39,368 nucleotides of DNA. Origin: a virus. Where the stretch lies: positions 1-39,368 of IMG/VR virus record IMGVR_UViG_3300038701_002076, one strand, 5' to 3'. A program made the position numbers and the translations under genes. Below, one piece after another: positions 3,690 to 38,948 of the stretch. Position 1 is the first letter of the stretch. Each line of letters begins with the position of its first letter. The notes beneath the pieces are model-generated. The model was not told where the DNA came from and did not search any database. It saw only the letters and a program-made list of their open reading frames with translations.

Positions 3690-3920
3690 ATGAAAAGAGA
3701 CTTTAAAAAGGCCAAAAAAGTAAAAACGGCCATTCAATGCGAAGTAACTCAAAACTTTTTCAACGGGCTGTGCCGGATTGCCGCACTGCATGGCGAGTCT
3801 GTGCAGGATGTTATGGAGCACGCTGTTTGTGAATTGACAGAGAAAGAAAAAGGCTGGACACCAGAGCAGCTACAGGCCCGGCTGGATGCGATAACAGCGG
3901 AGCATGGCAACCATGAATAA
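3690..3920 (+). CDS. Second small ribbon-helix-helix-like protein
   Basis: The 76-residue product has a lysine-rich N-terminus (MKRDFKKAKKVK), a short strand (TAIQCEVTQ) and two helices (FFNGLCRIAALHGES, QDVMEHAVCELTEKE), again fitting a ribbon-helix-helix plan, with a C-terminal extension. GAAGAG lies about 12 nt upstream of the ATG. Its function is not known. It is encoded directly before the tandem winged-helix gene. Confidence 0.5.
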   Translation: MKRDFKKAKKVKTAIQCEVTQNFFNGLCRIAALHGESVQDVMEHAVCELTEKEKGWTPEQLQARLDAITAEHGNHE

Positions 3921-4821
3921 CTCACACACTGAAACCGTAGCCCGCTTCAAAATCGAAGCATTGCGAGCCGAACGTGAGCTGGAAAAGGAGATTAACGGCC
4001 CATTGATGGTTGTTGACGAAAAGCCAAAGCCAGCCACCGTTCAACCTATTAAGCCGCACAACAAAAAGAAAGATATTTCGTGGGATGCTGTGCTTAAAAC
4101 TCTGGAGATATGCCAGCCCGCAGCACCCGCCCAGCTACGCAAGCAATTGCGCGATAGCGGCTATTATCTGCGCACCGGCACCGAAGTCGCCCGGCTTAGC
4201 GACATGGTTTACAAGCTGAAAAAGCAGGGCCGGATTAAGCAGCTTGAGGATGGCATGCTGATACTGCCTGACTACTCTCTTGAGGCAATCGAAACGCCGC
4301 CAAAGCCGACTGTGATGCTACAGCGCGATGCAGTTATCGCTGCATTAGCAGCCGTCCAGCCTGCTCAGTTTGAAGAAATCAAGGCGCATTTATTCGATGC
4401 CGGGTTTGATGTTGCCTCATACCGTGGCCGTAAACGGCTATCCAGCACATTAGCCCAGCTCAAGGTGCAGGGCATGGTCGATTTAGATAACAAGACATGG
4501 CGACTGACTGATACCACTAAGCAGCCAGCACAGCCCGCAGACGCCAAGCCGGTTGCAAAGGCAATCCCAAGCACCAAGCCTGCGCCACCCGTAAAGCCTA
4601 CACCCACACCGATAGATACCTACTCAACGCAGTGCATAGCGTTAGAAGCCTCTATTAAGTTATCCAATAAACAAATTATTCATGCATCAATAGCCGCGAA
4701 TGGCATCGCGGTATTGCGCCCAACAAACTCATCCATTGCCACCACGCTGGATGAACTCAACGAAATTACCGAGCGACTGCGCAATTTGAGCGCGTTGCTT
4801 GATGCGTCTGAGCCGGACTGA
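3913..4821 (+). CDS. Tandem winged-helix protein, putative replication or regulatory DNA-binding protein
   Basis: The 302-residue product contains two similar winged-helix-like modules: about residues 55-115 (WDAVLKTLEICQPAAPAQLR... LSDMVYKLKKQGRIKQLEDG) and about 140-200 (RDAVIAALAAVQPAQFEEIK... LSSTLAQLKVQGMVDLDNKT). Each has the pattern helix, helix, recognition helix and a two-stranded wing. A Pro/Ala/Lys-rich linker (about 205-235) leads to a C-terminal helical domain (LDELNEITERLRNLSALLDA). ATG 3913 has GGAG at 10 nt; ATG 3904 is also possible but too close to it. The protein probably binds DNA, perhaps at repeated sites. I know no named family for this combination. Confidence 0.6.
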   Translation: MNNSHTETVARFKIEALRAERELEKEINGPLMVVDEKPKPATVQPIKPHNKKKDISWDAVLKTLEICQPAAPAQLRKQLRDSGYYLRTGTEVARLSDMVYKLKKQGRIKQLEDGMLILPDYSLEAIETPPKPTVMLQRDAVIAALAAVQPAQFEEIKAHLFDAGFDVASYRGRKRLSSTLAQLKVQGMVDLDNKTWRLTDTTKQPAQPADAKPVAKAIPSTKPAPPVKPTPTPIDTYSTQCIALEASIKLSNKQIIHASIAANGIAVLRPTNSSIATTLDELNEITERLRNLSALLDASEPD

Positions 4822-5828: not shown

Positions 5829-6082
5829 TTCAGCATTATCTAGGTTACGCCAAACAGCAACAAAGCGGCAGACTGCCAAATTATTTGAATCACCCTATTT
5901 TCCGAATCGTCAGAGCTGCCCGTTTGCGAGAGCAGCCGTATTGCCAGTTTTGTGGCGAACCCGCATCGGAAGTCCACCACGAAGATTGCGACTATCCACC
6001 CTGGGACACTTTTGATGTGCCATCCAACTTGACGCCAATCTGCCACAACTGCCATTGCAAAGCGCATGGGAAAGAGTCATGA
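5825..6082 (+). CDS. HNH-type endonuclease-like protein
   Basis: The 85-residue product has the small-HNH plan: C-x2-C zinc knuckle (YCQFCG, about residues 40-45), the central 'EVHHEDCDY' (about 49-57), 'NLTPICHNCHCKAHG' with a second C-x2-C and the last His (about 68-82). These are the zinc ligands and the metal-binding His pair of HNH nucleases. The ATG overlaps the stop of the TcmP-like gene (ATGA), and its own stop overlaps the next gene, so the three genes form one translational unit. It could nick or cut DNA, or act with the flanking proteins. Confidence 0.7.
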   Translation: MIQHYLGYAKQQQSGRLPNYLNHPIFRIVRAARLREQPYCQFCGEPASEVHHEDCDYPPWDTFDVPSNLTPICHNCHCKAHGKES

Positions 6083-7443
6083 ACGCTATCGTTAAGCCAA
6101 TCACTCAGCACTACATACCGCGCAATGAGCGCACGCTTGAGGATGTAGAGCGCGAAATCAAAAATGTAATGACTTCCAGCTTCGTGGATCTTGGCCGCGA
6201 ATTCAAGCGAATCAAGGATGACGAGTTGTGGCGCAACGCGGATGTGGAATATGGCAGCTTCACTTGGTACTGCGAGAAACGGTGGGGATTAAAGAAGACT
6301 GCGGTATACAGATTTATAAGTGCTTGTGAAACTTATGATTTGCTTTCCCCGATCGGGGAAAATCTCCCTACACACGAAACCCAAATACGCCCGCTCACCC
6401 GCCTCAAAAACGACGATGACGTGATTGAAGCTTGGAATCGGGCGGTATTAGCTGCTGGCGATAGCGCCCCCACTGAGCAGCTTGTGAAGGATGTCGTCAA
6501 GCAGATGTTTGACGAACGCAAGGATAAAGCCGTGGATGAAGAGCCAGAACCGCTGACGCTGGATGGTGGCGCAGATGGCTCAGGCGTGCCGGAATTTATC
6601 AAAATCAATCAGTGGACAGCCTTACCGCAAGATGAGCGTGAGCGGTATCTGTCTGGCGTTGAAACCGGCAAGGTTTTTAATAAGCAGAAAACAGACAGCA
6701 TTGAATGGGCGCAATGGTCTTGGAACCCGATAACCGGGTGCAAGCATGATTGCCCGTACTGCTACGCCAGAGACATTGCGGAACGATTTTACAAACAAGG
6801 ATTCGAGCCAGCGTTTCTTCCTGATCGGCTGAAAGCGCCCGCCAACACGAAAGTACCGGCAGAGGCCGCTAATGATATTGCTTTCAAGAATGTCTTTACC
6901 TGCTCTATGGCTGACCTGTTTGGGCGTTGGGTGCCTGCCGAATGGATTGAAGCCGTACTTAATCAAGTCCGCGCAAACCCGCAATGGAATTTCTTGTTTC
7001 TGACTAAATTTCCCAAGCGCATGGCTGAGTTTGATATTCCCAAAAACGCCTGGATGGGGACAAGCGTGGATTGCCAAGCTCGCGTAAAAAACGCAGAGCG
7101 GGCCTTTGAGAAAGTTAATTGCGATGTGAAATGGCTATCGGTCGAGCCTTTGATCGAACCGCTTACGTTTAATTCGCTTGATATGTTTCAGTGGGTGGTT
7201 ATCGGTGGGGCCAGCTCATCTAACAGAACCCCAGCCTTTGTGCCGTCAATGGATGCTATCGCGTCGCTACACCAGCAAGCCCGCCAGTCTGGTTGCAGTA
7301 TTTACTACAAGACTAATTGCGGCATGAGCGACGAACTAAGACTTAAAGAATTCCCTTGGCAGAAACGTACTCAGAGGAGAGCGCCAGCGGTATTTAATTA
7401 TCTCGGCAAAGCCAAAACAGAAAATCAGCAGATCGAATCGTAA
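6079..7443 (+). CDS. Phage Gp37/Gp68-like (DUF5131) radical-SAM-type protein with N-terminal DNA-binding domain
   Basis: The 454-residue protein has two parts. Residues 1-150 contain a helical domain often seen in phage and plasmid DNA-binding or ParB/KorB-like proteins (RTLEDVEREIKNVMTSSFVD... LKKTAVYRFISACETYDLL... 'THETQIRPLTRL'). Residues 195-440 are the DUF5131 domain: 'WSWNPITGCKHDCPYCYA' with Cys221, Cys225 and Cys228 in the C-x3-C-x2-C spacing of radical SAM enzymes, then 'NVFTCSMADLFGRWVP', 'FLFLTKFPKRM', 'WMGTSVDCQARV', 'WLSVEPLIEPL', 'VVIGGASSS' and 'IYYKTNCG'. A [4Fe-4S] cluster and SAM chemistry are likely. The substrate is unknown, but the neighbouring TcmP-like and HNH genes suggest nucleic-acid modification. 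Start ATG 6079 overlaps the HNH stop (ATGA). Confidence 0.8.
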   Translation: MNAIVKPITQHYIPRNERTLEDVEREIKNVMTSSFVDLGREFKRIKDDELWRNADVEYGSFTWYCEKRWGLKKTAVYRFISACETYDLLSPIGENLPTHETQIRPLTRLKNDDDVIEAWNRAVLAAGDSAPTEQLVKDVVKQMFDERKDKAVDEEPEPLTLDGGADGSGVPEFIKINQWTALPQDERERYLSGVETGKVFNKQKTDSIEWAQWSWNPITGCKHDCPYCYARDIAERFYKQGFEPAFLPDRLKAPANTKVPAEAANDIAFKNVFTCSMADLFGRWVPAEWIEAVLNQVRANPQWNFLFLTKFPKRMAEFDIPKNAWMGTSVDCQARVKNAERAFEKVNCDVKWLSVEPLIEPLTFNSLDMFQWVVIGGASSSNRTPAFVPSMDAIASLHQQARQSGCSIYYKTNCGMSDELRLKEFPWQKRTQRRAPAVFNYLGKAKTENQQIES

Positions 7444-22722: not shown

Positions 22723-23168
22723 TGCAATTTCAGGCGTCACCGCCGTTTGAACTCAGCAAAGATTCGGACGGCGCGCAGCATGCCGTGCGTGATGGGCTGG
22801 CAATCACCGTCACCGCTGACCTACCCGCCACGATCAACCACCGTTTCGCGCAACAGCCCCAGACCGGCAACAGCGCCCGTTGGCTGCAGATCGAGCTGGA
22901 AAACGGCACGCATATTTACGTTGACGGCCAGCACGTCATTGTGACCGGTAAAGACTACCGGCCTACGTTTGATTTATTTACGGACGAGGAATGGCTGGAT
23001 CGTGCATTTAAGCACATGAAGGCCGAAAGAGACGAGCGGGGCCGCTATGTGGTGGACACTGACAACAATCGGCGTGTCCTGCAGCAGCTATTCGAGCGGG
23101 TGGAATTAGCGCAGAAAAATCGACTGCTGGCGTGGTGTCGGCATGCGATGGCCCGGTTCTGTGACTAA
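22722..23168 (+). CDS. Hypothetical protein beside the fibre genes
   Basis: The 148-residue product has a beta-rich N-terminal half ('GLAITVTADLPATINHRFAQ', 'RWLQIELENGTHIYVDGQHV') and a helical C-terminal half ('EWLDRAFKHMKAERDERGRY', 'RVLQQLFERVELAQKNRLLA'). No family is recognised. It overlaps the sulfotransferase start by 8 nt. Confidence 0.5.
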   Translation: MQFQASPPFELSKDSDGAQHAVRDGLAITVTADLPATINHRFAQQPQTGNSARWLQIELENGTHIYVDGQHVIVTGKDYRPTFDLFTDEEWLDRAFKHMKAERDERGRYVVDTDNNRRVLQQLFERVELAQKNRLLAWCRHAMARFCD

Positions 23169-23979
23169 AATTTGGTGGCTGGCCAGTTACCCGAAATCGG
23201 GTAACACCTGGTTACGGTTGTTTTTATCCGCGTACCGCAACGGCGGTGAGGTGAATATCAACCGCCCATTGGATGCGGCAATGGATGACATACAAGATTA
23301 TTTTTATCAGTCCGTTTCACCTGTCGCGCTGGCTGATCTGAGCGATGAGCATCTGTCATTGTTGCGGCCCACTGCGTTGCTCAGTCTATGCGCGATTGCC
23401 CCAGAGTCCAAGCCGCTGCTGGTAAAAACCCACACTGCCCGCTGTGCGGTGGATGGCATCGATACGATACCGATCAGCCTGACGCACGGTGCGGTTTATC
23501 TGATTCGCGATCCGCGCGACGTGGCCGTGAGCTATGCCGCGCATCGGGGCGTGAGTATTGATGAACTCATTAAACAAATGCAATCACCAACTGCCGTAGG
23601 TCGCCGTGATCGGTTGTATCACGTTCTCAGTGGTTGGTCGGAGCATGTTAAATCATGGGTAGCTGATTCGCGCTATCCGGTGCTTGCGGTGCGCTACGAA
23701 GATTTGTGCGAAAAGCCCGAATATTGTTTCAAGCAAATTCTGACCTTCTTGCGCCACGAAATCGACAACACCCGACTGCAGCAGGCAGTAGACGCAACCC
23801 GTTTTGATGTGCTGCAAGCCCAAGAGCAGGCCAGCGGATTTCGCGAAGCAACCAAGCACGGCGCGTTCTTTCGCAGTGGCCAGCCGGGCAACTGGCGCGA
23901 GGCGCTGACCCAGGCGCAAGCGGCACAGATTACTGAGACGCACGGCGCGATGATGCGGGAGTTTGGCTATGGCGATTGA
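23161..23979 (+). CDS. PAPS-dependent sulfotransferase
   Basis: From GTG 23161 (MTKIWWLASYPKSGNTWLRL) the 272-residue protein has all the hallmarks of cytosolic-type sulfotransferases: 5'-phosphosulfate-binding loop 'YPKSGNTW' (residues 10-17), a catalytic-type 'VKTHTA' (about 88-93), the 3'-phosphate site 'YLIRDPRDVAVSY' with Arg116 and Ser124, and the C-terminal 'RSGQPGNWREALT' equivalent of the R-K-G-x-x-G-x-W loop. It should transfer sulfate from PAPS to a hydroxyl or amine. The acceptor is unknown; neighbours are surface proteins, so a virion glycan or a host cell-envelope sugar is possible. Active-site elements look intact, so it is probably functional. Confidence 0.85.
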   Translation: MTKIWWLASYPKSGNTWLRLFLSAYRNGGEVNINRPLDAAMDDIQDYFYQSVSPVALADLSDEHLSLLRPTALLSLCAIAPESKPLLVKTHTARCAVDGIDTIPISLTHGAVYLIRDPRDVAVSYAAHRGVSIDELIKQMQSPTAVGRRDRLYHVLSGWSEHVKSWVADSRYPVLAVRYEDLCEKPEYCFKQILTFLRHEIDNTRLQQAVDATRFDVLQAQEQASGFREATKHGAFFRSGQPGNWREALTQAQAAQITETHGAMMREFGYGD

Positions 23980-24310: not shown

Positions 24311-24780
24311 TGGCCCGCCCCAGTAAATACAAGCCGGAATTCTGCGAGCAGGCTCAAAAGCTATGCATGCTGGGCGCAACTAATCTGGATATCGCCAAGT
24401 TTTTCGGTGTAGCAGAGTCCACGATTGATAAATGGCTGGCAGAAAAGCCCGAATTTTCGGGGGCCATAAAAGAAGGCAGGGTTATGGCTGATGCCAATGT
24501 CGCCAGCCGGTTATACGCACGGGCGATGGGCTACACGCACAAAGAAGAGAAGTTATTCCACTATCAGGGCGAGGTGATCCGCGCTGAGACTATCGCGCAT
24601 TATCCGCCAGAAACTGCTGCGGCTATTTTTTGGCTGAAAAACCGCCGACCTGATTTATGGCGCGATAAGCCGACCGCTGAGGATGACGACACACCGCCGC
24701 CAGTACGGGTGATTATTGAGCAACGTAGTGCGGACGCAGATGAATCGGACGCAGGTCCGGTTTCTGCAGATACCGAATAA
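24310..24780 (+). CDS. terS: Terminase small subunit
   Basis: The 156-residue product has the N-terminal helix-turn-helix of phage small terminases: 'RPSKYKPEFCEQAQKLCMLG', 'ATNLDIAKFFGVAESTIDKW' then 'LAEKPEFSGAIKEGRVMADA' and 'AAAIFWLKNRRPDLWRDK'. It recognises the packaging site and feeds DNA to the large subunit, whose gene overlaps its 3' end by about 40 nt. Confidence 0.85.
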   Translation: MARPSKYKPEFCEQAQKLCMLGATNLDIAKFFGVAESTIDKWLAEKPEFSGAIKEGRVMADANVASRLYARAMGYTHKEEKLFHYQGEVIRAETIAHYPPETAAAIFWLKNRRPDLWRDKPTAEDDDTPPPVRVIIEQRSADADESDAGPVSADTE

Positions 24781-25972
24781 ATTTAGCGCCTACGTTGGCG
24801 GTTTTGGTTCCGGCAAAACATGGTCGGGCTGCACCAAACTGGCTATTCACGCGCTACAGAATCCCGGTATCACACAAGGCTATTTTGCACCGACTTACCC
24901 GCTTATCCGTGACATTTTCTACCCGACGATAGAAGAAGTGGCGCAAACAGTAGGGATGCGCTCGGTTGCCAGAGTTGGGAATCACGAGGTTGATTTATAT
25001 TTGGGGCGGCGGCTGTATAGCACAGTGATTTGCCGCACGATGGACAAGCCGGAGAATATCGTCGGGTTCAAGATCGGGAATGCCGTAATCGACGAAATCG
25101 ACATACTCGATAAAGCCAAAGCGGAACGGGCCTGGAATAAGGTGATTGCCCGCATGCGCTTCAAAGGCATGGCCAATCGCATTGGCGTTACCACAACGCC
25201 AGAGGGTTTCCGGTTTACGTATCAGCGATTTAAGCGCGATCCAAGCGACAGCTACGGCATGGTGCAGGCCAGCACCTACGAAAACGAGCACAACTTGCCG
25301 GATGATTACATCGATTCGCTGCTGGAATCGTACCCCGACAACCTGATTGCGGCATACATCGATGGCGAATTCACAAACCTGCAGTCGGGCAGTGTGTACC
25401 CGATGTTCGACCGGTTCGAGAACCGATCAACCGCAACCCTGGAATTTAACGAGCCGCTGCATATTGGCATGGATTTCAACGTGCTGAAAATGGCCGCAGT
25501 CGTGCATGTGATCCGCGACGGGCTACCGATTGCGGTGGACGAGATCACCGACGGGCGCGACACACCGTACATGATCGACCTGTTTGAGCAGCGCTACAAA
25601 GGGCACCACATTACTGTGTATCCAGACGCCAGCGGTGGCAGCACGTCCAGCAAGGGTGCGTCATTGTCCGATATTTCCCTGCTGCGCACTGCCGGGTATT
25701 CGATCAGCGCACCCAAAGCAAACCCGCCGATCCGCAACCGGGTCATCGCCATGAATGCGATGTTTTGTAATGCAGTCGATCAGCGTCGGTACAAGATCAA
25801 CTCTGAGAAATGCCCGCATTACACCGAGGCGCTGGAGCAACAGGCGTATGACAAAAACGGCGAGCCGGATAAATCGACAGGCCATGACCATATTGCAGAT
25901 GCCGGCGGTTATTTCATCCATCAGCGCTACCCGTTAAAACCGCGCATGCGATCCAGAGAACTAGCAATCTAA
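24740..25972 (+). CDS. terL: Terminase large subunit
   Basis: From ATG 24740 the 410-residue protein shows the ATPase motifs of large terminases: Walker A 'GGFGSGKTW' (residues 20-28), 'YFAPTYPLIRDIFYPTI', Walker B 'AVIDEID' (115-121), coupling motif 'GVTTTPEG' (about 149-156), and a C-terminal RNase H-like nuclease starting 'HIGMDFNVLKMAAVV' with Asp245, later 'VYPDASGGSTSSKG' and 'HDHIADAGGYFI'. It is the packaging motor and nuclease. Earlier TTG/GTG starts (24716, 24728) are possible. Start overlaps terS; stop overlaps the portal gene. Confidence 0.92.
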   Translation: MNRTQVRFLQIPNKFSAYVGGFGSGKTWSGCTKLAIHALQNPGITQGYFAPTYPLIRDIFYPTIEEVAQTVGMRSVARVGNHEVDLYLGRRLYSTVICRTMDKPENIVGFKIGNAVIDEIDILDKAKAERAWNKVIARMRFKGMANRIGVTTTPEGFRFTYQRFKRDPSDSYGMVQASTYENEHNLPDDYIDSLLESYPDNLIAAYIDGEFTNLQSGSVYPMFDRFENRSTATLEFNEPLHIGMDFNVLKMAAVVHVIRDGLPIAVDEITDGRDTPYMIDLFEQRYKGHHITVYPDASGGSTSSKGASLSDISLLRTAGYSISAPKANPPIRNRVIAMNAMFCNAVDQRRYKINSEKCPHYTEALEQQAYDKNGEPDKSTGHDHIADAGGYFIHQRYPLKPRMRSRELAI

Positions 25973-27453
25973 TGACAGCCAGTATTAATACACCTATCGC
26001 GTTCTACGATGAAATGGCCGAACTGTGGGCGCTACCCGAAGCCCTGATGGGCGGCACTCGCGCCATGCGCCAGGCCGGCACCATCTATCTGCCGAAGGAA
26101 GGTGCATACCAGGAAAACGCGGCGGGGGTAGCGACAAGCACTTGGATTGGTGAATCCAACCAAGCGTATCAGCGGCGGCTAAATCGTACGGTGCTGTATA
26201 ACGCCTACCGCAAAGCAATATATGGTTTGCGCGGCAAAGTATTCTCAAAGCCGATTACATGGGAAGGCCCGAAGCGCTTTGAGCCGTGGCTGGATGATGT
26301 GGACATGCAGGGGCGTGACCTCACAGCATTTGCGTTCGATGCGTTCGGCGCGGCGCTGAACTACGGCATCACCTACATCTTGGTAGACAGCACCCGGCTT
26401 CCCGAAGGCGCGACCGAGGCCGATGCGCGGCGAGCTGGCGCGCGGCCTTATCTGATTCATGTTCCGGCTAAGCGTCTGATCGGTTGGCGCTTTGATGATA
26501 ATGGCTTGGAGCAAGTTCGTATCCGTGAATACGACACCGTACCCGAGGGTGATTACGATATTAACAGCGTGATTCGTGTTCGGGTGCTCTATCGCGATCA
26601 TTGGGAGCTGCACGAGGCTAAACTAGCCAAGGACGCTGGCCCGCTGAACAGCGAGCGGTTGCTAGTCAACCAGACCGCAACAACCGTGGATCAAGGCGGA
26701 TCGTTCGATCTGGTGGACGAAGGACCGAATGCGCTAGGCGAGATTGCGCTGGTACCGGTTTATACCGGGCGCGCCGGTGAGTTTCAGGCAGAGCCGCCAT
26801 TGATGGATCTGGCTTATAAGAATTTGGAGCACTGGCAGTCATCGAGTGATCAGCGGCACATTCTGCACGTTGCGCGGGTGCCGTTGCTGTTCGGTAAGGG
26901 CGTGAGCGGTGATGACACGTTTGAGATCGGCCCGAATCGGTTGATTACGTCAACCTCGTCGGACGCTGACCTGAAATACGTTGAGCACACCGGCGCCAGT
27001 ATTGACGCAGGCCGTGAAGATTTGGAGCGGATCGAACTGCAGATGCGGGCGTTATCGCTTGAACCGATGCTGCCAAAATCCGGTGACATTACCGCCACCC
27101 GTAGCGCAATCGATAAAGCCGAAGCGGACAGCAGCTTGCAAGCATGGGCGCTGAATTTGCAGGACTCGCTGGACATGGCGCTGTATTACATGGACAGATA
27201 TACAGGCCGCGACGAAGGCGCAAAAACGAAAGTCAATTCTAATTTCGGCTTGTCGCTCGAATCTGATGAGGATGTTAAATCTCTGTTGCAGCTTTGGTTA
27301 AGCGATGGCTTAAGCCTGGAAACGCTGTGGGCTGAATTGAAGCGACGCGGCAAGCTGGATGAAGATTTCGACGCCGGAGAAGAAGCGGACAAAATCGGCA
27401 CGCAAGAGCCGCGCTTGCCGATGCGACAACCAGCCACGAGTAACGCAGCATGA
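25972..27453 (+). CDS. Portal protein (DUF4055 family)
   Basis: The 493-residue protein follows TerL directly and shows the DUF4055 pattern: 'YQRRLNRTVLYNAYRKAIYG', 'LRGKVFSKPITWEGP', 'YGITYILVDSTRLP', 'GARPYLIHVPAKRLIGWRFD', 'LVPVYTGRAGEFQAEPPLMD', 'LEHWQSSSDQRHILHVARVP' and 'LEPMLPKSGDITATRSAIDK'. It forms the dodecameric ring at the capsid vertex. The gene's last bases carry the first copy of a 25-bp repeat that brackets the following gene. Confidence 0.88.
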   Translation: MTASINTPIAFYDEMAELWALPEALMGGTRAMRQAGTIYLPKEGAYQENAAGVATSTWIGESNQAYQRRLNRTVLYNAYRKAIYGLRGKVFSKPITWEGPKRFEPWLDDVDMQGRDLTAFAFDAFGAALNYGITYILVDSTRLPEGATEADARRAGARPYLIHVPAKRLIGWRFDDNGLEQVRIREYDTVPEGDYDINSVIRVRVLYRDHWELHEAKLAKDAGPLNSERLLVNQTATTVDQGGSFDLVDEGPNALGEIALVPVYTGRAGEFQAEPPLMDLAYKNLEHWQSSSDQRHILHVARVPLLFGKGVSGDDTFEIGPNRLITSTSSDADLKYVEHTGASIDAGREDLERIELQMRALSLEPMLPKSGDITATRSAIDKAEADSSLQAWALNLQDSLDMALYYMDRYTGRDEGAKTKVNSNFGLSLESDEDVKSLLQLWLSDGLSLETLWAELKRRGKLDEDFDAGEEADKIGTQEPRLPMRQPATSNAA

Positions 27454-27777
27454 CAACGATTTTGAATATCGAAACAGCAATCACAGCAGCAGCAATCGTT
27501 GGAGCAATTGTCATCGTGTGGGGCTTGGTAAGGCTAATTAAGCGCTGGCCTTATGAGTGTCTTTTGGCAATGGAGTTATGCGCGTTTGCTGTAACGCCGG
27601 CGTTCTGGATGTTTATCTATACGCGATATTTCGACGGCAACGCTACCGCGCTCGACTTTATAAAGGACGCTGTTGCTGCCACGTTTATCGCCATCATTGC
27701 CGGTTTCACTATAACGCTTATGAGATTCCACAAAAACGCGGCAAGAGAGAATGAGTAACGCAGCATGACAACGATTT
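27438..27777 (+). repeat. 25-bp direct repeats bracketing the membrane gene
   Basis: The 25 bases beginning GAGTAACGCAGCATGACAAC occur exactly at 27438-27462 and 27753-27777, 315 bp apart. Each copy contains an ATG start: the first starts the membrane protein and the second starts the HslV-like peptidase. Removing one unit would restore a direct portal-peptidase junction. Confidence 0.85.
27450..27758 (+). CDS. Three-span membrane protein inserted between portal and peptidase genes
   Basis: The 102-residue product has three hydrophobic segments (TAITAAAIVGAIVIVWGLVR, LLAMELCAFAVTPAFWMFIY, AVAATFIAIIAGFTITLMRF). It shares its first five codons (MTTI plus) and upstream sequence with the following gene because of the 25-bp direct repeat. 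Membrane proteins are out of place in a head-gene cluster, so it is probably a late insertion with its own role, such as superinfection exclusion; that is inference. Confidence 0.65.
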   Translation: MTTILNIETAITAAAIVGAIVIVWGLVRLIKRWPYECLLAMELCAFAVTPAFWMFIYTRYFDGNATALDFIKDAVAATFIAIIAGFTITLMRFHKNAARENE

Positions 27778-28202
27778 GCACTGATGGCAAAACAATGGCC
27801 GCCGATTCTATGCAGGTAGGTGATTATATCGACCCGCATCCACTGCCGAAGTTGCGTTTTTGCGGGGCAGGGGCGCTGGTTGGCGCGGCGGGTGATTTGG
27901 AAAATGGCGAGCTGTTTCGTCAATGGCTCGGTATTGGCGCGCCCGCTGATGAAAAGCCAAATGTAGGCGACCATTTTCAAGCGCTTGTACTGCGGCCTTC
28001 GGGTGAAGTCATATATTACGGGCCGAAGCTGACGCCGATTGAGGTTGGCGCTCCCGCCGCTATTGGCTCAGGCTCGGTTGCGGCAATGGCCGCTTTAATG
28101 TGCGGCAAGTCTCCGGCGGAGGCTATTGAGATTGCAATCGAGCTTGATGCAAGCTCACGCGGCCCGGTGCGGGTGGTCGATTTAGCCAATGCCAGCCGAT
28201 GA
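27765..28202 (+). CDS. HslV/proteasome-like Ntn-hydrolase peptidase
   Basis: The 145-residue protein starts MTTICTDGKTMAADSMQVGD, closely following the N-terminus of HslV-like peptidases, where Thr after the processed Met is the nucleophile and 'D-G-x-T-x-A-A-D' follows. Later 'CGAGALVGAAGDLENGELFR', 'FQALVLRPSGEVIYY', 'AAIGSGSVAAMAALMCGKSP' and 'AEAIEIAIELD' match the fold's core, including the conserved G-S-G. No ATPase partner gene is nearby. Position next to portal and MuF genes suggests a role in head maturation, perhaps proteolysis of scaffold or of host proteins. Confidence 0.75.
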   Translation: MTTICTDGKTMAADSMQVGDYIDPHPLPKLRFCGAGALVGAAGDLENGELFRQWLGIGAPADEKPNVGDHFQALVLRPSGEVIYYGPKLTPIEVGAPAAIGSGSVAAMAALMCGKSPAEAIEIAIELDASSRGPVRVVDLANASR

Positions 28203-29553
28203 CGCTAGCACCCAAATAGCCGATCACGCCATTACCCGCGCTATATTTCTGGAGCGTTGGGGCGGGCGGATTGCCAGCCGTATGGCTGGGGTGATTGATG
28301 CGGTGCTGGCCGATATTCTCGCAAGATTGCGCCAGGACGATATCAGCACGTTTACCCGCGCCCGGCTGGAAGCGCTGCTGGTCGAGCTGGACACGATAGC
28401 CGAGGGGCTGGATGCGCGGCTGCTGACCGATCTGGAGCCGGAATTGCGCGAGATGGTTGCCGCTGAAATCGCCTCAAACAACGAGGCTATGCTGGCCGCT
28501 GATATTGCCGCCGCTGTGGATAGTTTGACGCCTGAGCAGATTTACGCCGCAGCGCTGGCCGATCCGATGCGTGGCCGATTTCTGTCGGAGTGGTTCGAGT
28601 CGCTGGAGGACAGCCTTAAGCAGAAAGTCCGCGACGCCATCCGCATTGGCTATATCGAAGGCGAAACAACCGACCAGATTGCAGCACACCTACTTGATTT
28701 GGTTGATGCCCGATCAAAACGCGATGCACAGACGATTGTGCGAACTGCGATTACGCATTTTCAAAGTCGCGCGCTGATTGAGGCGTACAAGGGCAGTCCA
28801 GACGTGGCGCAGCAGTACCGCTGGCTCTCGGTGCTCGACTCCAGAACCTGCGTGACAGCAGATACGCCAGTCATGACCCCTGATGGCGAGCGGCCTATTA
28901 TTGATATAGCGGCTGGTGATTGGGTTATCGGTGGTAGCGGCCAACCGCGGCAAGTAACAGCTATTTACGAAGCAGAGGCTTGCGAACTGATCAGAGTCAC
29001 CCTGAGCAACGGCAAGACCGTCACCTGTACCGCGGATCACGATTGGCTGACAAACCGCGGTTGGATAGCGGCGGGACAGTTGATTGAAGGTGAAGAATTG
29101 GCAGGCGGGTGTGCTGTCGCGCAAATCGAGCGCATTCAATCTGCAGATCCTGTGCCGACTTATGACATCACTGTAGCTGAGGATGAATCCTTTATCGTGT
29201 ATGGTGCGGTGCTGCATAACTCCACTATTTGCAGGGCACGCAGCAATCGCGTTTACAAGATCGACCAAGGTCCGTTGCCACCCGCGCATTTCGGGTGCCG
29301 GTCAACGATTACGCCGCTGCTCAAAAATCTGCCGAATCCGGAATTTACCAGCTACAGTGAATGGCTAGAGCGCCAACCGCACACACTGCAGGACGATATT
29401 TTGGGGCCAACACGCGCCAAGCTGTTTCGAGACGGCGGATTGCCGCTGGATAAATTCGTCAACGACCGCAACGGCCATGTCTACACGCTGGAAGAATTGG
29501 CCCGCCGTGAGCGCGAAGCGTGGCGTCGTGCAGGGCTTGACGAGGCTGCATAA
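28189..29553 (+). CDS. MuF-like head morphogenesis protein interrupted by a mini-intein
   Basis: The 454-residue precursor has an N-terminal helical region (about 1-150), then the MuF domain: 'DQIAAHLLDLVDARSKRDAQ', 'TIVRTAITHFQSRALIEAYK', 'RWLSVLDSRT' (ending at residue 220). A 124-residue intein follows (221-344), and the MuF domain resumes with 'STICRARSNRVYKIDQGPLP' and 'PAHFGCRSTITPL'. Without the intein the join reads L-D-S-R-T-S-T-I-C-R-A-R, the expected unbroken MuF signature. The spliced protein would have 330 residues. MuF proteins associate with the portal inside the head and are needed for assembly or ejected with DNA. ATG 28189 overlaps the peptidase gene by 14 nt. Confidence 0.85.
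   Translation: MPADDASTQIADHAITRAIFLERWGGRIASRMAGVIDAVLADILARLRQDDISTFTRARLEALLVELDTIAEGLDARLLTDLEPELREMVAAEIASNNEAMLAADIAAAVDSLTPEQIYAAALADPMRGRFLSEWFESLEDSLKQKVRDAIRIGYIEGETTDQIAAHLLDLVDARSKRDAQTIVRTAITHFQSRALIEAYKGSPDVAQQYRWLSVLDSRTCVTADTPVMTPDGERPIIDIAAGDWVIGGSGQPRQVTAIYEAEACELIRVTLSNGKTVTCTADHDWLTNRGWIAAGQLIEGEELAGGCAVAQIERIQSADPVPTYDITVAEDESFIVYGAVLHNSTICRARSNRVYKIDQGPLPPAHFGCRSTITPLLKNLPNPEFTSYSEWLERQPHTLQDDILGPTRAKLFRDGGLPLDKFVNDRNGHVYTLEELARREREAWRRAGLDEAA
28849..29220 (+). other. 124-residue mini-intein coding segment
   Basis: The segment starts with Cys1 and block A 'CVTADTPVMTPDGERPIIDI', has block B 'TCTADHDWLTNRGWIAAGQL' with T-x-x-H, block F 'VPTYDITVAEDESFIVYG' and block G 'VLHN' followed by Ser+1. 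All four splicing blocks and key residues (Cys1, block-B His, penultimate His, terminal Asn, Ser+1) are present. No homing-endonuclease domain is inserted; the spacing between blocks B and F is minimal. It sits at the most conserved point of the MuF domain, the usual place for inteins. Confidence 0.88.
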
Positions 29554-30762: not shown

Positions 30763-31536
30763 ATGTCTGATCCAACCAACACCCCGGCCAACGAACCGGC
30801 CAACGAACCGCAAATCAAGCTCGACGCGCCCGAAATCCAAGAGGCTATCCGCAAAGCGGTGGACTCCGAAGTTTCAGGTCTGAAAAACAAAAACCAAGAG
30901 CTGCTTGGCAAGCTGAAAGATTACAGCGAACGTGCCAAAGCTATCGACGCGCTAGGCGGCGAGGATGGCATAAAGCAGCTCATGGAGATGCGGCAGCGGC
31001 TTGAGCAGGACGAAGACCTGAAACTATTCGCGACTGGCAAACGCGAGGAATATAACGAGCGGATTACCCGCCGCGCCAAGGCTGATTTGCAAAAACAACT
31101 CGAAGCCCGAGATAAAGTTATTGAGGAGTCCCAGCAAAAAGCCAAAACGTTGGAACAAAAATTGCAGCGGCAGGTTGTTACCGAGCAGGTACGCCAGGCT
31201 GCTGCCAAAGCTGAGCTATTTCACGGTGCGGTAGAAGATGCACTATTGCATGCCAGTAATGTGTTTTCACTGGATGAAAACGGCAATCTGATCGCCCGCA
31301 ACGCTGATGGCGAACTGGAAACCGGCAAGGATGGCAAAACGCTTACTATTGGTGAATGGCTCGAATCCATGCGAGAGAGCCGCCCGCATTGGTGGCCGGC
31401 ACAGTCCGGCATGGGAACAAAGGCTGGTGGCAATAACGGCACGCAGCGCGGCCCGAAATCATACAGCGAAGCCAAAACGATAGACGAAAAGCGAGCGTTT
31501 CTGGCCAACAAGTACAAACTTGAAACGACACAGTAA
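30763..31536 (+). CDS. Putative scaffold protein
   Basis: The 257-residue product is charged and mainly coiled-coil: 'EVSGLKNKNQELLGKLKDYS', 'GIKQLMEMRQRLEQDEDLKL', 'RRAKADLQKQLEARDKVIEE' and 'SQQKAKTLEQKLQRQVVTEQ', with a C-terminal part 'NVFSLDENGNLIARNADGEL'. Size, composition and location immediately before the major capsid gene are those of phage scaffolding proteins, which guide procapsid assembly. The ribosome site is AAGGGGAAAC. The N-terminus has a short A-N-E-P duplication. Confidence 0.72.
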   Translation: MSDPTNTPANEPANEPQIKLDAPEIQEAIRKAVDSEVSGLKNKNQELLGKLKDYSERAKAIDALGGEDGIKQLMEMRQRLEQDEDLKLFATGKREEYNERITRRAKADLQKQLEARDKVIEESQQKAKTLEQKLQRQVVTEQVRQAAAKAELFHGAVEDALLHASNVFSLDENGNLIARNADGELETGKDGKTLTIGEWLESMRESRPHWWPAQSGMGTKAGGNNGTQRGPKSYSEAKTIDEKRAFLANKYKLETTQ

Positions 31537-31662: not shown

Positions 31663-32652
31663 ATGGCATTAAGCAATATGCAGGTGTTTTCGCAATTCGC
31701 GTATTCATCTATGACCGAAACCGTCGCCCAGCAGATCGACTTGTTCAACGCTGCTAGTCGCGGCGCTATTCAACTTCGCCAAGCCGCGAACGTCGGTGAT
31801 TACACCCATGAGGCGATGTTCCAGGAGCTTTCTGGTCTGGTTCGTCGTCGCGACGCCTACGGCAGCGGCAGTGTGAATGCCGTCAGTCTGGCGCAACTTG
31901 ACCATATCGGCGTGAAAGTCGCTGCCGGCACACCGCCGATCAAATACGAGCAGCAGCAGTTTCGCTGGATTCAGCAAAACCCTGATACAGCCGGTACGGT
32001 ATACGGCGAACAGCTTGCGGAGGCCATGATCCAAGATATGGTGAATGCGGCTATTCGTAGCCTAAAAGCGGCGATGGTCGGCAATAAAACCAGTGGCGGT
32101 TATACCGGTGTTCTGTATGAGTCCGTGGCGGCCAATTTAACCCTGAACGCCCTGAACCGGGGCGCGGCGCTATTCGGCGATCGCGCCAATAGTATTCGCA
32201 CCTGGGTCATTCATTCAACACCTATGACCGACCTCGTTGACAACGTGCTAACCAATAGTTCACGGCTGTTTGAGTTCGGCACCGTCAATATTATGGAAGA
32301 CGGGTTTGGTCGTCGGTTTATCGTGACCGACTCTGCCCCGCTGTATCTGGACGGTGGTACCGCACCAGACACTTATTTCACACTGGGGCTGGTTGAAGGT
32401 GCTGCCGTTGTCGAGGACAACGACGATCTGTTTACCAACGACGACACAAGTAATGGTACGGAAAACATCATTACCACCATTCAAAGCGAGTGGACCTACA
32501 ATCTTAAACTTAAAGGCTACCAGTTCAACACTGCCACCAGCGCTGAAAGCCCGACTGATACCGAACTAGGTACTAGTACTAACTGGGTGAAATTTGTCAG
32601 TGACAACAAAAACACGGCAGGCGTTGCTGTGCAGACACTGGGTGGTTCCTGA
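31663..32652 (+). CDS. Major capsid protein
   Basis: The 329-residue product follows the scaffold gene and has the composition of a HK97-fold capsid subunit. Recognisable segments are 'TETVAQQIDLFNAASRGAIQ' near the N-terminus, 'GDYTHEAMFQELSGLVRRRD', 'YGEQLAEAMIQDMVNAAIRS' and 'RTWVIHSTPMTDLVDNVLTN' in the core, and 'FGRRFIVTDSAPLYLDGG' towards the end. This pattern matches phage major capsid proteins of the portal-DUF4055/MuF type. GGAG lies 9 nt before the ATG. It forms the icosahedral shell. Confidence 0.82.
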   Translation: MALSNMQVFSQFAYSSMTETVAQQIDLFNAASRGAIQLRQAANVGDYTHEAMFQELSGLVRRRDAYGSGSVNAVSLAQLDHIGVKVAAGTPPIKYEQQQFRWIQQNPDTAGTVYGEQLAEAMIQDMVNAAIRSLKAAMVGNKTSGGYTGVLYESVAANLTLNALNRGAALFGDRANSIRTWVIHSTPMTDLVDNVLTNSSRLFEFGTVNIMEDGFGRRFIVTDSAPLYLDGGTAPDTYFTLGLVEGAAVVEDNDDLFTNDDTSNGTENIITTIQSEWTYNLKLKGYQFNTATSAESPTDTELGTSTNWVKFVSDNKNTAGVAVQTLGGS

Positions 32653-34375: not shown

Positions 34376-34821
34376 TGCCGACGAACTACTTTGCCGCCGG
34401 CGAGGCCATTGCCACGCAGATCAATACCACGGTTTCGGATTTTGCCTATGTCGGGCCGCTGAACGTCGAGCAGGACGTATTCAGTCAAGGCGCCCGATTG
34501 CCCGCGTGTTTTATCCGGCTGGCCTCAAACAATCCACCGGACCGACCGAGCGCTGACCTGCAATGGACGCAGGATTGGGATATTGTCATTGTCTGCCGCA
34601 ATCCTGCCGACGGGCGCGGCGGTTGGCGCGGCTTCAACGAAGCGGGCGCGTTGCTGTATAGCGTTGCCGAGACCGCACTGGCCGATTTCAGGCCCGCAAC
34701 CGGGTTTTCGCGGCTGGAGTTCGTGGATTCCCCGTTTGAAACCGTGAACCGGCCCGGCGGGTATCTGGCAGCATTTCTGCGCGTTAGAACCAAATTCGAC
34801 AGCGGCATAGATGACGAATAA
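34375..34821 (+). CDS. gp37-like tail terminator or joining protein (DUF1834-type)
   Basis: The 148-residue product follows the gp36-gpG order and matches the size and pattern of gp37-type proteins: 'FAAGEAIATQINTTVSDFAY', 'LPACFIRLASNNPP', 'WTQDWDIVIVCRNPADGRGG' and 'GALLYSVAETALADFRPATG'. Such proteins cap the tail tube, indicating a long-tailed phage. The ribosome site region is AT-rich. It overlaps the next gene by 11 nt. Confidence 0.68.
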   Translation: MPTNYFAAGEAIATQINTTVSDFAYVGPLNVEQDVFSQGARLPACFIRLASNNPPDRPSADLQWTQDWDIVIVCRNPADGRGGWRGFNEAGALLYSVAETALADFRPATGFSRLEFVDSPFETVNRPGGYLAAFLRVRTKFDSGIDDE

Positions 34822-35386
34822 CCCGGTCATCTGTATCGCCACCGGCCCCAGCCTGACCCTGGCTGATGTGAACTACGTCAAGGGCAAACTGCCGGTTATC
34901 ACCATTAACAACGCCTGCCATCTGGCGCCGTGGGCAGATTATCACTATGCCTGCGATCTAAAATGGTGGCGCGCCTATGTTGACACAATAGGCGCGGGGC
35001 AGTGCTGGACAATTGACAAGCGAGCGGCCAAAGAATTCGAATTGAATTTACTTAAACATAAAGGCCTTGGCACCGGTTTATGCACCGCGCCCGGCTATAT
35101 TTATCATGGTGGCAATAGCGGCTATCAGGCTATCGGACTGGCGTATGTGCTGGGCTATAATCCGATTTATTTGCTGGGCTATGACTGCCAAGCCACTAGC
35201 GGTAAAAAACATTACCATCCAGACCACCCTGGTCGGCTGGACTGCCCCCATAATTATCGCCGCTGGCGACGACGTTTTAATGCCTTGGCACGAGATGCTA
35301 AGCAGGCCGGCTTGGAAATCATCAACTGCAGCCGAGAAACGGCAATTGCCGACATACCGAGAGCGAATCTATGCGACGTGCTGTAA
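34811..35386 (+). CDS. DUF115-like sugar-transferase-type protein
   Basis: The 191-residue product shows the pattern 'VICIATGPSLTLADVNYVKG', 'VITINNACHLAPWADYHYAC', 'DLKWWRAYV', 'IYHGGNSGYQAIGLAYVLGY', 'IYLLGYDCQATSGKKHYHPD' and 'LEIINCSRETAIADIP'. The G-P-S-L and G-Y-D motifs resemble DUF115/MptE-like and bacterial motility-associated glycosyl-transfer proteins; the chemistry is unproven. It is a complete paralogue of the start-less domain at 32879-33490 and opens the carbohydrate-like cassette. Confidence 0.65.
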   Translation: MTNNPVICIATGPSLTLADVNYVKGKLPVITINNACHLAPWADYHYACDLKWWRAYVDTIGAGQCWTIDKRAAKEFELNLLKHKGLGTGLCTAPGYIYHGGNSGYQAIGLAYVLGYNPIYLLGYDCQATSGKKHYHPDHPGRLDCPHNYRRWRRRFNALARDAKQAGLEIINCSRETAIADIPRANLCDVL

Positions 35387-37837: not shown

Positions 37838-38301
37838 CCGACGACCGCTACGCCGAGCTGCGAGAGCAGAAGAAGGTTGAGCAGCTTATTCGCAGCTACC
37901 GCGAACAGCTTGCGGTCGGTAGCTGGGTGGACATGCTGTGGCAGTTGCGCTATGTGTCCAAAGATTGCCCGCACATTGACCCCGGTGATTGCCAAGCGTT
38001 TTTTGATTGGATTCATGACCGTGAATATGCCCTGGATATCGGCGGCGGCAGAGCACCACAGCTACGGCACACCAACAGCACTTTAGAGATCGTTGCCCGC
38101 AACGCCAACCAGCTCACCGCGATGATGCCCAGCCGACACCGCAAAGAGCGCCGACCCCGCACCACCGACAGCCACCCGATCTTCGTGCGGCATGGCGACC
38201 GGTACGTACTGATCGACGGGCGACGGCGCGTGAATACGTTTATCACGTCCTGCCCTGATCAAAAACTCCCGATCTATCTGATAACACCAAATATTGCATG
38301 A
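37816..38301 (+). CDS. ParB-like nuclease-domain protein
   Basis: The 161-residue product has a helical N-terminal half and a C-terminal half reading 'TLEIVARNANQLTAMMPSRH', 'SHPIFVRHGDRYVLIDGRRR' then 'VNTFITSC' and 'KLPIYLI'. 'D-G-R-R-R' corresponds to the G-x-x-R box of ParB/Srx-fold proteins, which bind CTP or ATP. In phages, genes of this type often sit next to methyltransferase and glycosyltransferase genes. It may act as a nucleotide-dependent switch or kinase. Confidence 0.55.
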   Translation: MVGDTDLTDDRYAELREQKKVEQLIRSYREQLAVGSWVDMLWQLRYVSKDCPHIDPGDCQAFFDWIHDREYALDIGGGRAPQLRHTNSTLEIVARNANQLTAMMPSRHRKERRPRTTDSHPIFVRHGDRYVLIDGRRRVNTFITSCPDQKLPIYLITPNIA

Positions 38302-38948
38302 AATATAAACACGGGATTGCATTTCCTGATATGGATAATTACCTGTATGACCGGCTGCCAGAATCCGGCATCTGGCAACAGGACGCGCTAGAGGCTGGGC
38401 TGATGTACGTGCAGCAGTGGCGTACCGCTATCGATGGCGGCGCACATGTCGGCACCTGGTCCAGACAACTGGCGCCCCAGTTCAGCCGGGTGATTGCGTT
38501 CGAGCCAGCCGCCGATACGTTCCAGTGCCTGATCGAAAACACATTGCCGCTGGGCGTTGAATGTCATCAGCAGGCGCTTGGCGCGACGCCGGGTATTGTC
38601 ACGATCCAGCGCGATCTGCGTGATATGCAGCGACGGCATACCGGGGCACGGTACTGTGTAGGCAGCGATGCCAAAGACCCTGACGCGGTGCGGCGGGTAA
38701 CAATTGATAGCCTGGAATTGCAGGATCTGGATTTTTTGAAGCTGGACCTTGAGGGCGGCGAACCGGACGCGCTCAAGGGCGCACTGGAAACCCTGCAGCG
38801 TTGCCGGCCTGTCGTGGTCTTCGAGCGCGGTAAATTTTGCTGCCGGTACTGCTACGAGAAAAACGCCAGCGAGAAAATACTGGAACGCATCGGCGCAAAA
38901 CCGCTGGCCGATCTGGGTTTAAATCTGGTTTGGGGGTGGGATGGCTGA
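38298..38948 (+). CDS. FkbM-type SAM methyltransferase
   Basis: The 216-residue product has motif I-like 'TAIDGGAHVGTWSRQLAPQF' (about 43-62), 'VIAFEPAADTFQCLIENT' (FEP, motif II of FkbM proteins), 'VTIDSLELQDLDFLKLDLEG' and 'GEPDALKGALETLQRCRPVV' then 'VFERG'. D-F-L-K-L-D-L-E-G is the hallmark of FkbM methyltransferases, which O-methylate sugars and secondary metabolites. This supports the view that the cassette makes or decorates a glycan. ATGA overlap with the previous gene. Confidence 0.85.
   Translation: MKYKHGIAFPDMDNYLYDRLPESGIWQQDALEAGLMYVQQWRTAIDGGAHVGTWSRQLAPQFSRVIAFEPAADTFQCLIENTLPLGVECHQQALGATPGIVTIQRDLRDMQRRHTGARYCVGSDAKDPDAVRRVTIDSLELQDLDFLKLDLEGGEPDALKGALETLQRCRPVVVFERGKFCCRYCYEKNASEKILERIGAKPLADLGLNLVWGWDG

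Follow-up and report, generated by a model that had tools for sequence, protein, structure and literature searches.

The gene for a head protein of the MuF type in the window, a virus record of 39,368 bases to which positions refer here unless another locus is named, contains a stretch of 124 codons that reads like an intein. Does this stretch leave the protein by splicing, is it a domain that belongs there, and by what route did it enter the gene? Judged from sequence and a structure model, it is very probably a class 1 mini-intein, predicted to splice so as to leave a MuF protein of 330 residues, and it probably homed into the gene by way of a nuclease in an ancestor. Here we present the anatomy of this intein, its fold, its empty-site homologues and its relatives at the same site. 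The features of the locus are as follows.

28189..29553, plus strand: gene for the MuF (minor head) protein precursor, 454 codons and stop; PF04233, phrog_241
28189..28848, plus strand: N-extein, 220 residues, ending in ..WLSVLDSRT
28834..28848, plus strand: LDSRT, conserved MuF block just 5' of the insertion point; its L, D and T do not vary among 48 MuF proteins
28849..29220, plus strand: mini-intein, 124 residues, Cys1 to Asn124, assigned from its residues, profile matches and predicted fold
28849..28851, plus strand: Cys1, in block A CVTADTPVMTPDG, nucleophile of the N-S acyl shift (role by homology)
29029..29040, plus strand: block B, T61-A-D-H64, aligned with solved inteins
29164..29166, plus strand: block F Asp106, equivalent of gp41-1 Asp107
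29215..29220, plus strand: block G, His123-Asn124
29221..29550, plus strand: C-extein, 110 residues, starting at Ser+1: STICRARSNRVYKIDQGPLPPAHFGCRST..
29230..29298, plus strand: remainder of the conserved MuF block, with Cys 29230-29232, PPAH (His 29287-29289) and Cys 29296-29298

A Pfam profile search places PF04233 (Phage_Mu_F, 39.4 bits) at residues 145-221 of the open reading frame 28189-29553, and the same frame matches phrog_241 (head morphogenesis) with an E value of 1e-90. The gene lies within a head module: upstream are the large terminase (TerL, 24716-25972) and a DUF4055 portal (25972-27453), followed by a small ORF and an HslV-family peptidase-like ORF, and downstream are the scaffold (30763-31536) and the major capsid protein (MCP, 31663-32652). 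The domain and the location beside the portal and head genes together identify the host as a MuF head protein, the name already given to it in the preliminary description. It is unusual for a head module to include an ORF such as that between portal and MuF, which matches phrog_1040 ('peptidase HslV family', 27765-28202, E 7e-29).

The insert comprises residues 221-344 of the 454-residue ORF, or 372 nt in frame, from the codon TGC (Cys, 28849-28851) to the codon AAC (Asn, 29218-29220), with Ser+1 at 29221. All residues expected of a class 1 intein are present, namely Cys1, the TxxH motif as T61-A-D-H64, D106, H123-N124 and S+1. Profile search and predicted fold gave only Hint matches and no endonuclease domain within the 124 residues, so that the insert, which is also too short to hold such a domain, classifies as a mini-intein. 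It is encoded in a single open frame and is neither a split intein nor part of a fractured gene. The preliminary description had given the limits 28849-29220, blocks A, B, F and G with their catalytic residues, the absence of an endonuclease and a product of about 330 residues after excision; the limits are exact to the codon, the blocks and residues were all recovered, and the computed product has 330 residues. These same residues bear on whether splicing has survived. The window comes from a metagenome-derived virus contig and could represent a remnant prophage, which would leave room for a former intein that no longer splices or does no more than cleave, with a MuF protein that is defective or works in pieces; but with all catalytic residues intact, the frame open over 454 codons, and the neighbouring TerL, portal, scaffold and MCP genes intact by domain, this is very unlikely.

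The rejoined flanks read LDSRT-STICR, as had been claimed, and align without a gap at the junction with uninterrupted MuF proteins, among them those of Caulobacter phage DMCA, Aeromonas phage pAEv1818, phage phiES15 and Pseudomonas phage PaMx74. Regarding the 124 uninterrupted loci (100 distinct junction sequences, selected by a Cys at +4 and not by the residue at +1), the +1 residue is Ser in 70 and Thr in 54, and nothing else. Because +1 is Ser or Thr in every one of them, Ser+1 belongs to MuF itself and the insert lies exactly before it; the segment is thus an in-frame addition that is missing from the homologues. Had the segment been intrinsic to the homologues, the intein assignment would have failed, but they run straight through the junction. 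That the domain belongs to this branch of MuF, with no removable insert, has next to no chance of being correct: apart from the absence of a known close homologue of the exact protein nothing speaks for it, the homologues from the 124 loci lack the segment and show no junction gap, and inteins of unrelated length occupy the same residue in other phages. This reading is refuted by the alignment.

To assess conservation, 48 MuF proteins free of inserts were aligned, and the columns of this alignment give the numbering used below. Invariant columns include W217, L221, D222, T225, C229, P246, H248, C251, R252 and S253, of which C229, H248 and C251 could be metal ligands. Sequence and structure searches of the PDB gave no sequence match and no clear fold match for MuF. 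The intein sits after T225, here called site a, and so divides the most conserved block of the protein. Since W217-T225 and C229-S253 are kept 124 residues apart in the precursor, MuF is unlikely to function before splicing.

Searched alone against Pfam profiles, the insert scored 33.4 bits with PT-HINT (cut-off 27.7), 33.6 bits with Intein_splicing (E 4e-8, slightly below the cut-off of 35.8) and 26.4 bits with Hint_2 (below the cut-off of 28.4). With phmmer it matched inteins in the PDB at E values of 7e-8 to 7e-7 (MtuRecA, gp41-1), DnaB also being matched at about 1e-7. On these scores the resemblance to inteins and Hint domains is not a matter of chance. An AlphaFold2 model built from an alignment of nine inteins has a pLDDT of 97, and the structures ranked highest for it by Foldseek and VIA-align are all inteins or Hint domains (Z 18.8-20.3, rmsd 1.0-1.7 Å, 119-123 of the 124 residues aligned). 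By structure, Z was 20.3 for BIL4, 20.1 for the class 3 DnaB intein, 19.1 for MtuRecA and 18.8 for gp41-1. The modelled insert thus has the Hint fold of solved inteins, at an identity to any known active intein that is low (about 25%).

The Hint fold also raises the question whether the domain might, in the manner of pretoxin Hint or bacterial intein-like (BIL) domains, cut MuF and free its C-terminal part with no joining of the flanks. PT-HINT is the best Pfam match over its cut-off, and the top VIA-align match, 2LWY, is BIL4 of C. thermocellum, which has the same fold (rmsd 1.0) and ties with true inteins; moreover, MuF proteins with toxin C-termini exist (PMC5576092, PMC5512222), and toxin domains are often carried by proteins of this type. 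A pretoxin domain would be followed by a variable C-terminal toxin, but here the insert is followed by CRARS..PPAHFGCRST and a normal MuF C-terminus, continuous with the uninterrupted homologues. BIL domains sit in variable secreted proteins, at non-conserved sites and often with a +1 residue that is no nucleophile; the domain in the window, unlike BIL4, is inserted at a conserved site of a phage head protein, between the invariant T225 and C229, and has Ser+1. Insertion in the most conserved stretch is typical of inteins, and the Ser+1 and His-Asn end that ligation requires are both present. A cleaving domain of either kind is highly improbable, and both versions were rejected on the conserved MuF sequence on both sides, Ser+1 and the His-Asn end.

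For a class 1 mini-intein we infer the following course of splicing and history. The host would be a portal-associated MuF protein of the SPP1 gp7 type, in which the insert folds as a Hint domain after translation. Cys1 would take over the N-extein by an N-S acyl shift, Ser+1 of the C-extein would attack to give a branched intermediate, and Asn124, aided by His123, would cyclise; an S-N/O-N shift would then yield the 330-residue MuF with a native bond at LDSRT-STICR. The intein probably entered MuF by nuclease-driven homing in an ancestor, the homing nuclease having since been lost, and may now be retained because exact excision alone restores MuF. The family at site a would include split inteins, and in two of these (L103 and L104, below) the halves are separated by a free-standing HNH gene. 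The intein could plausibly delay or condition head assembly, as the preliminary description suggested, since the insert splits the block that MuF conserves most. Each capsid of SPP1 contains one or two copies of MuF (gp7), bound to the portal (PMC5576092); if splicing were slow or conditional, it would give control over a portal-sitting protein of such low copy number.

Regarding its size, the intein was right to be called close to the lower limit, which is extreme but not unique. In a 2025 paper gp41-1, with 125 residues and Asp107 as its block F residue, is called the smallest intein (PMC12245125), and the TerL gene of another locus (L023, 484-4227) carries three inteins of 347, 326 and 124 residues, the third being equal in length to that of the window but different in sequence; databases beyond those covered here may contain smaller ones. 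The intein of the window shares with gp41-1 (PDB 6QAZ) its size (124 versus 125), the class 1-type Cys1, the block F Asp, the HN end and Ser+1, and the two folds match from end to end (Z 18.8, rmsd 1.7, 26% identity). The cyanophage-like gp41-1 is naturally split and resides in a helicase, whereas the present intein is one chain and resides in MuF. The window would thus add a natural cis mini-intein with Ser+1 that is on a par in size with the smallest reported and could be useful as a compact splicing tool.

Inteins in MuF are already known, published or annotated, at two sites adjoining that of the window: site b, directly before C229, in Kagunavirus, and site c, directly before C251, in Jerseyvirus and Vibrio phages. 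The Kagunavirus protein is annotated as 'minor head protein with inserted intein' (vB-Eco-KMB36, fEg-Eco06; PMC11162368). These inteins share the host protein and conserved block with that of the window but differ in insertion point, in length (272-397 residues), in having Cys+1 and, by length and the spacing of blocks A and B, in lineage. The conserved MuF block thus has three insertion points for inteins in a span of some 30 residues (after T225, before C229 and before C251). No earlier report of an intein at site a of MuF was found in the literature searched; the window holds a very small mini-intein, in a known intein-carrying host protein, at an insertion point for which no earlier report was found.

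Relatives at site a were found by junction-directed scans of IMG/VR. L017 has a split intein with halves of 87 and 40 residues on genes separated by a 12-nt gap: the MuF-IntN gene stops at TAG 2177-2179, and after AGAGG an ATG at 2191 opens the IntC-MuF gene. The presence of a Shine-Dalgarno-like AGAGG and an ATG immediately behind the stop speaks against a simple frameshift error. Additional copies of L017 and of L103 were sought, but only the same contigs were recovered, so that the split state of L017 is known from one contig. The MuF of L017 (1322-3621) carries two inteins, the split one at site a and one of 327 residues at site c. In L103 (2314-4509) MuF is fractured into two genes, each with a split-intein half, and an HNH gene (PF01844, 44 bits) lies between them; it overlaps the MuF-IntN stop as ATGA, and the IntC-MuF gene begins with GTG inside its 3' end. 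The IntC of L103 ends in VLSN, with Ser replacing the usual penultimate His. L104 (2305-4739) has the same gene order of MuF-IntN, HNH (38 bits) and IntC-MuF. Both HNH nucleases have a zinc-finger-like N-terminus. Contiguous inteins of 395 residues occupy site a in L018 and L097-L099, and in L035 the intein is cut by the contig end. The 395-residue intein of L018 has no recognised nuclease domain, and a free-standing GIY-YIG nuclease with NUMOD3 is encoded downstream of its MuF gene (3790-4509).

In a tree of N-halves the inteins of the window, L103, L104, L017, L018 and L035 group together with a support of 80/93, short of the 95 mark, and none of 500 shuffles of the site labels gave a value as low as that observed for clustering by site. 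With this moderate support the site-a inteins look like one family. L105, with an intein of 144 residues inserted at the same residue, was rejected as a member by its Cys+1 and its place elsewhere in the tree, and is best read as a separate invasion; a further candidate (L223) turned out to be RecA-like.

Fractured genes, in which a split intein is accompanied by a free-standing nuclease gene, were described by Dassa et al. 2009 in the account given in PMC6892783, and in PolB of phage MIJ3 an HNH gene separates the two parts of a split intein that resembles the PolB mini-intein of phage SCTP-2 (PMC6892783). The same arrangement occurs in MuF of L103 and L104 at the insertion point of the window, a new host gene and site with an HNH nuclease as in MIJ3; the window, which has no nuclease, corresponds to them as a one-piece form in the way that SCTP-2 corresponds to MIJ3. 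By analogy, the HNH genes of L103 and L104 may offer a means of intein movement. The inteins of the window and L103 are identical at 38 of 88 positions in the N-half (43% global) and 16 of 38 in the C-half, and at 50% over the segment found by tblastn, whereas the identity is 28% and 32% for the MuF exteins and 22% for the portals; since the inteins are closer than their host genes, lateral movement is suggested. The GC3 of the intein (0.51 versus 0.60 ± 0.06 for the phage, 5th percentile of its 372-nt windows) weakly suggests an outside origin. It is conceivable, if rather unlikely, that the one-piece forms, the split form with a 12-nt gap and the split forms with HNH make up one site-a family in which the intein of the window was re-joined from a split state after loss of the nuclease gene, its removal now gating MuF in head assembly. 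Together the one-piece, split and nuclease-accompanied forms at site a provide a small natural series on the origin or loss of split inteins, in which the split forms with HNH that are related to the intein of the window are the more interesting part.

Searches of IMG/VR with the intein and with the spliced MuF gave only distant relatives, a plasmid collection held no MuF with this intein, and the intein part of the query was matched in none of the 25 MuF loci reported from GTDB species genomes. A nucleotide search of phages gave TerL matches at 64-74% or short pieces only, with no near relative of the whole phage. Elsewhere, three loci (L029, L044 and L080) encode MuF proteins with long C-terminal extensions (622 to 1191 residues) beyond the normal end, possibly injected effector domains. 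In the window, a DUF5131 gene (6055-7443, 138 bits) with a weak radical-SAM match lies directly before the genes for replication protein O and DnaB helicase. A sulfotransferase (23143-23979, 94 bits), a weak MptE-like match (34811-35386) and an FkbM methyltransferase (38298-38948, 50 bits) point to possible glycan or surface modification by this 39-kb phage.
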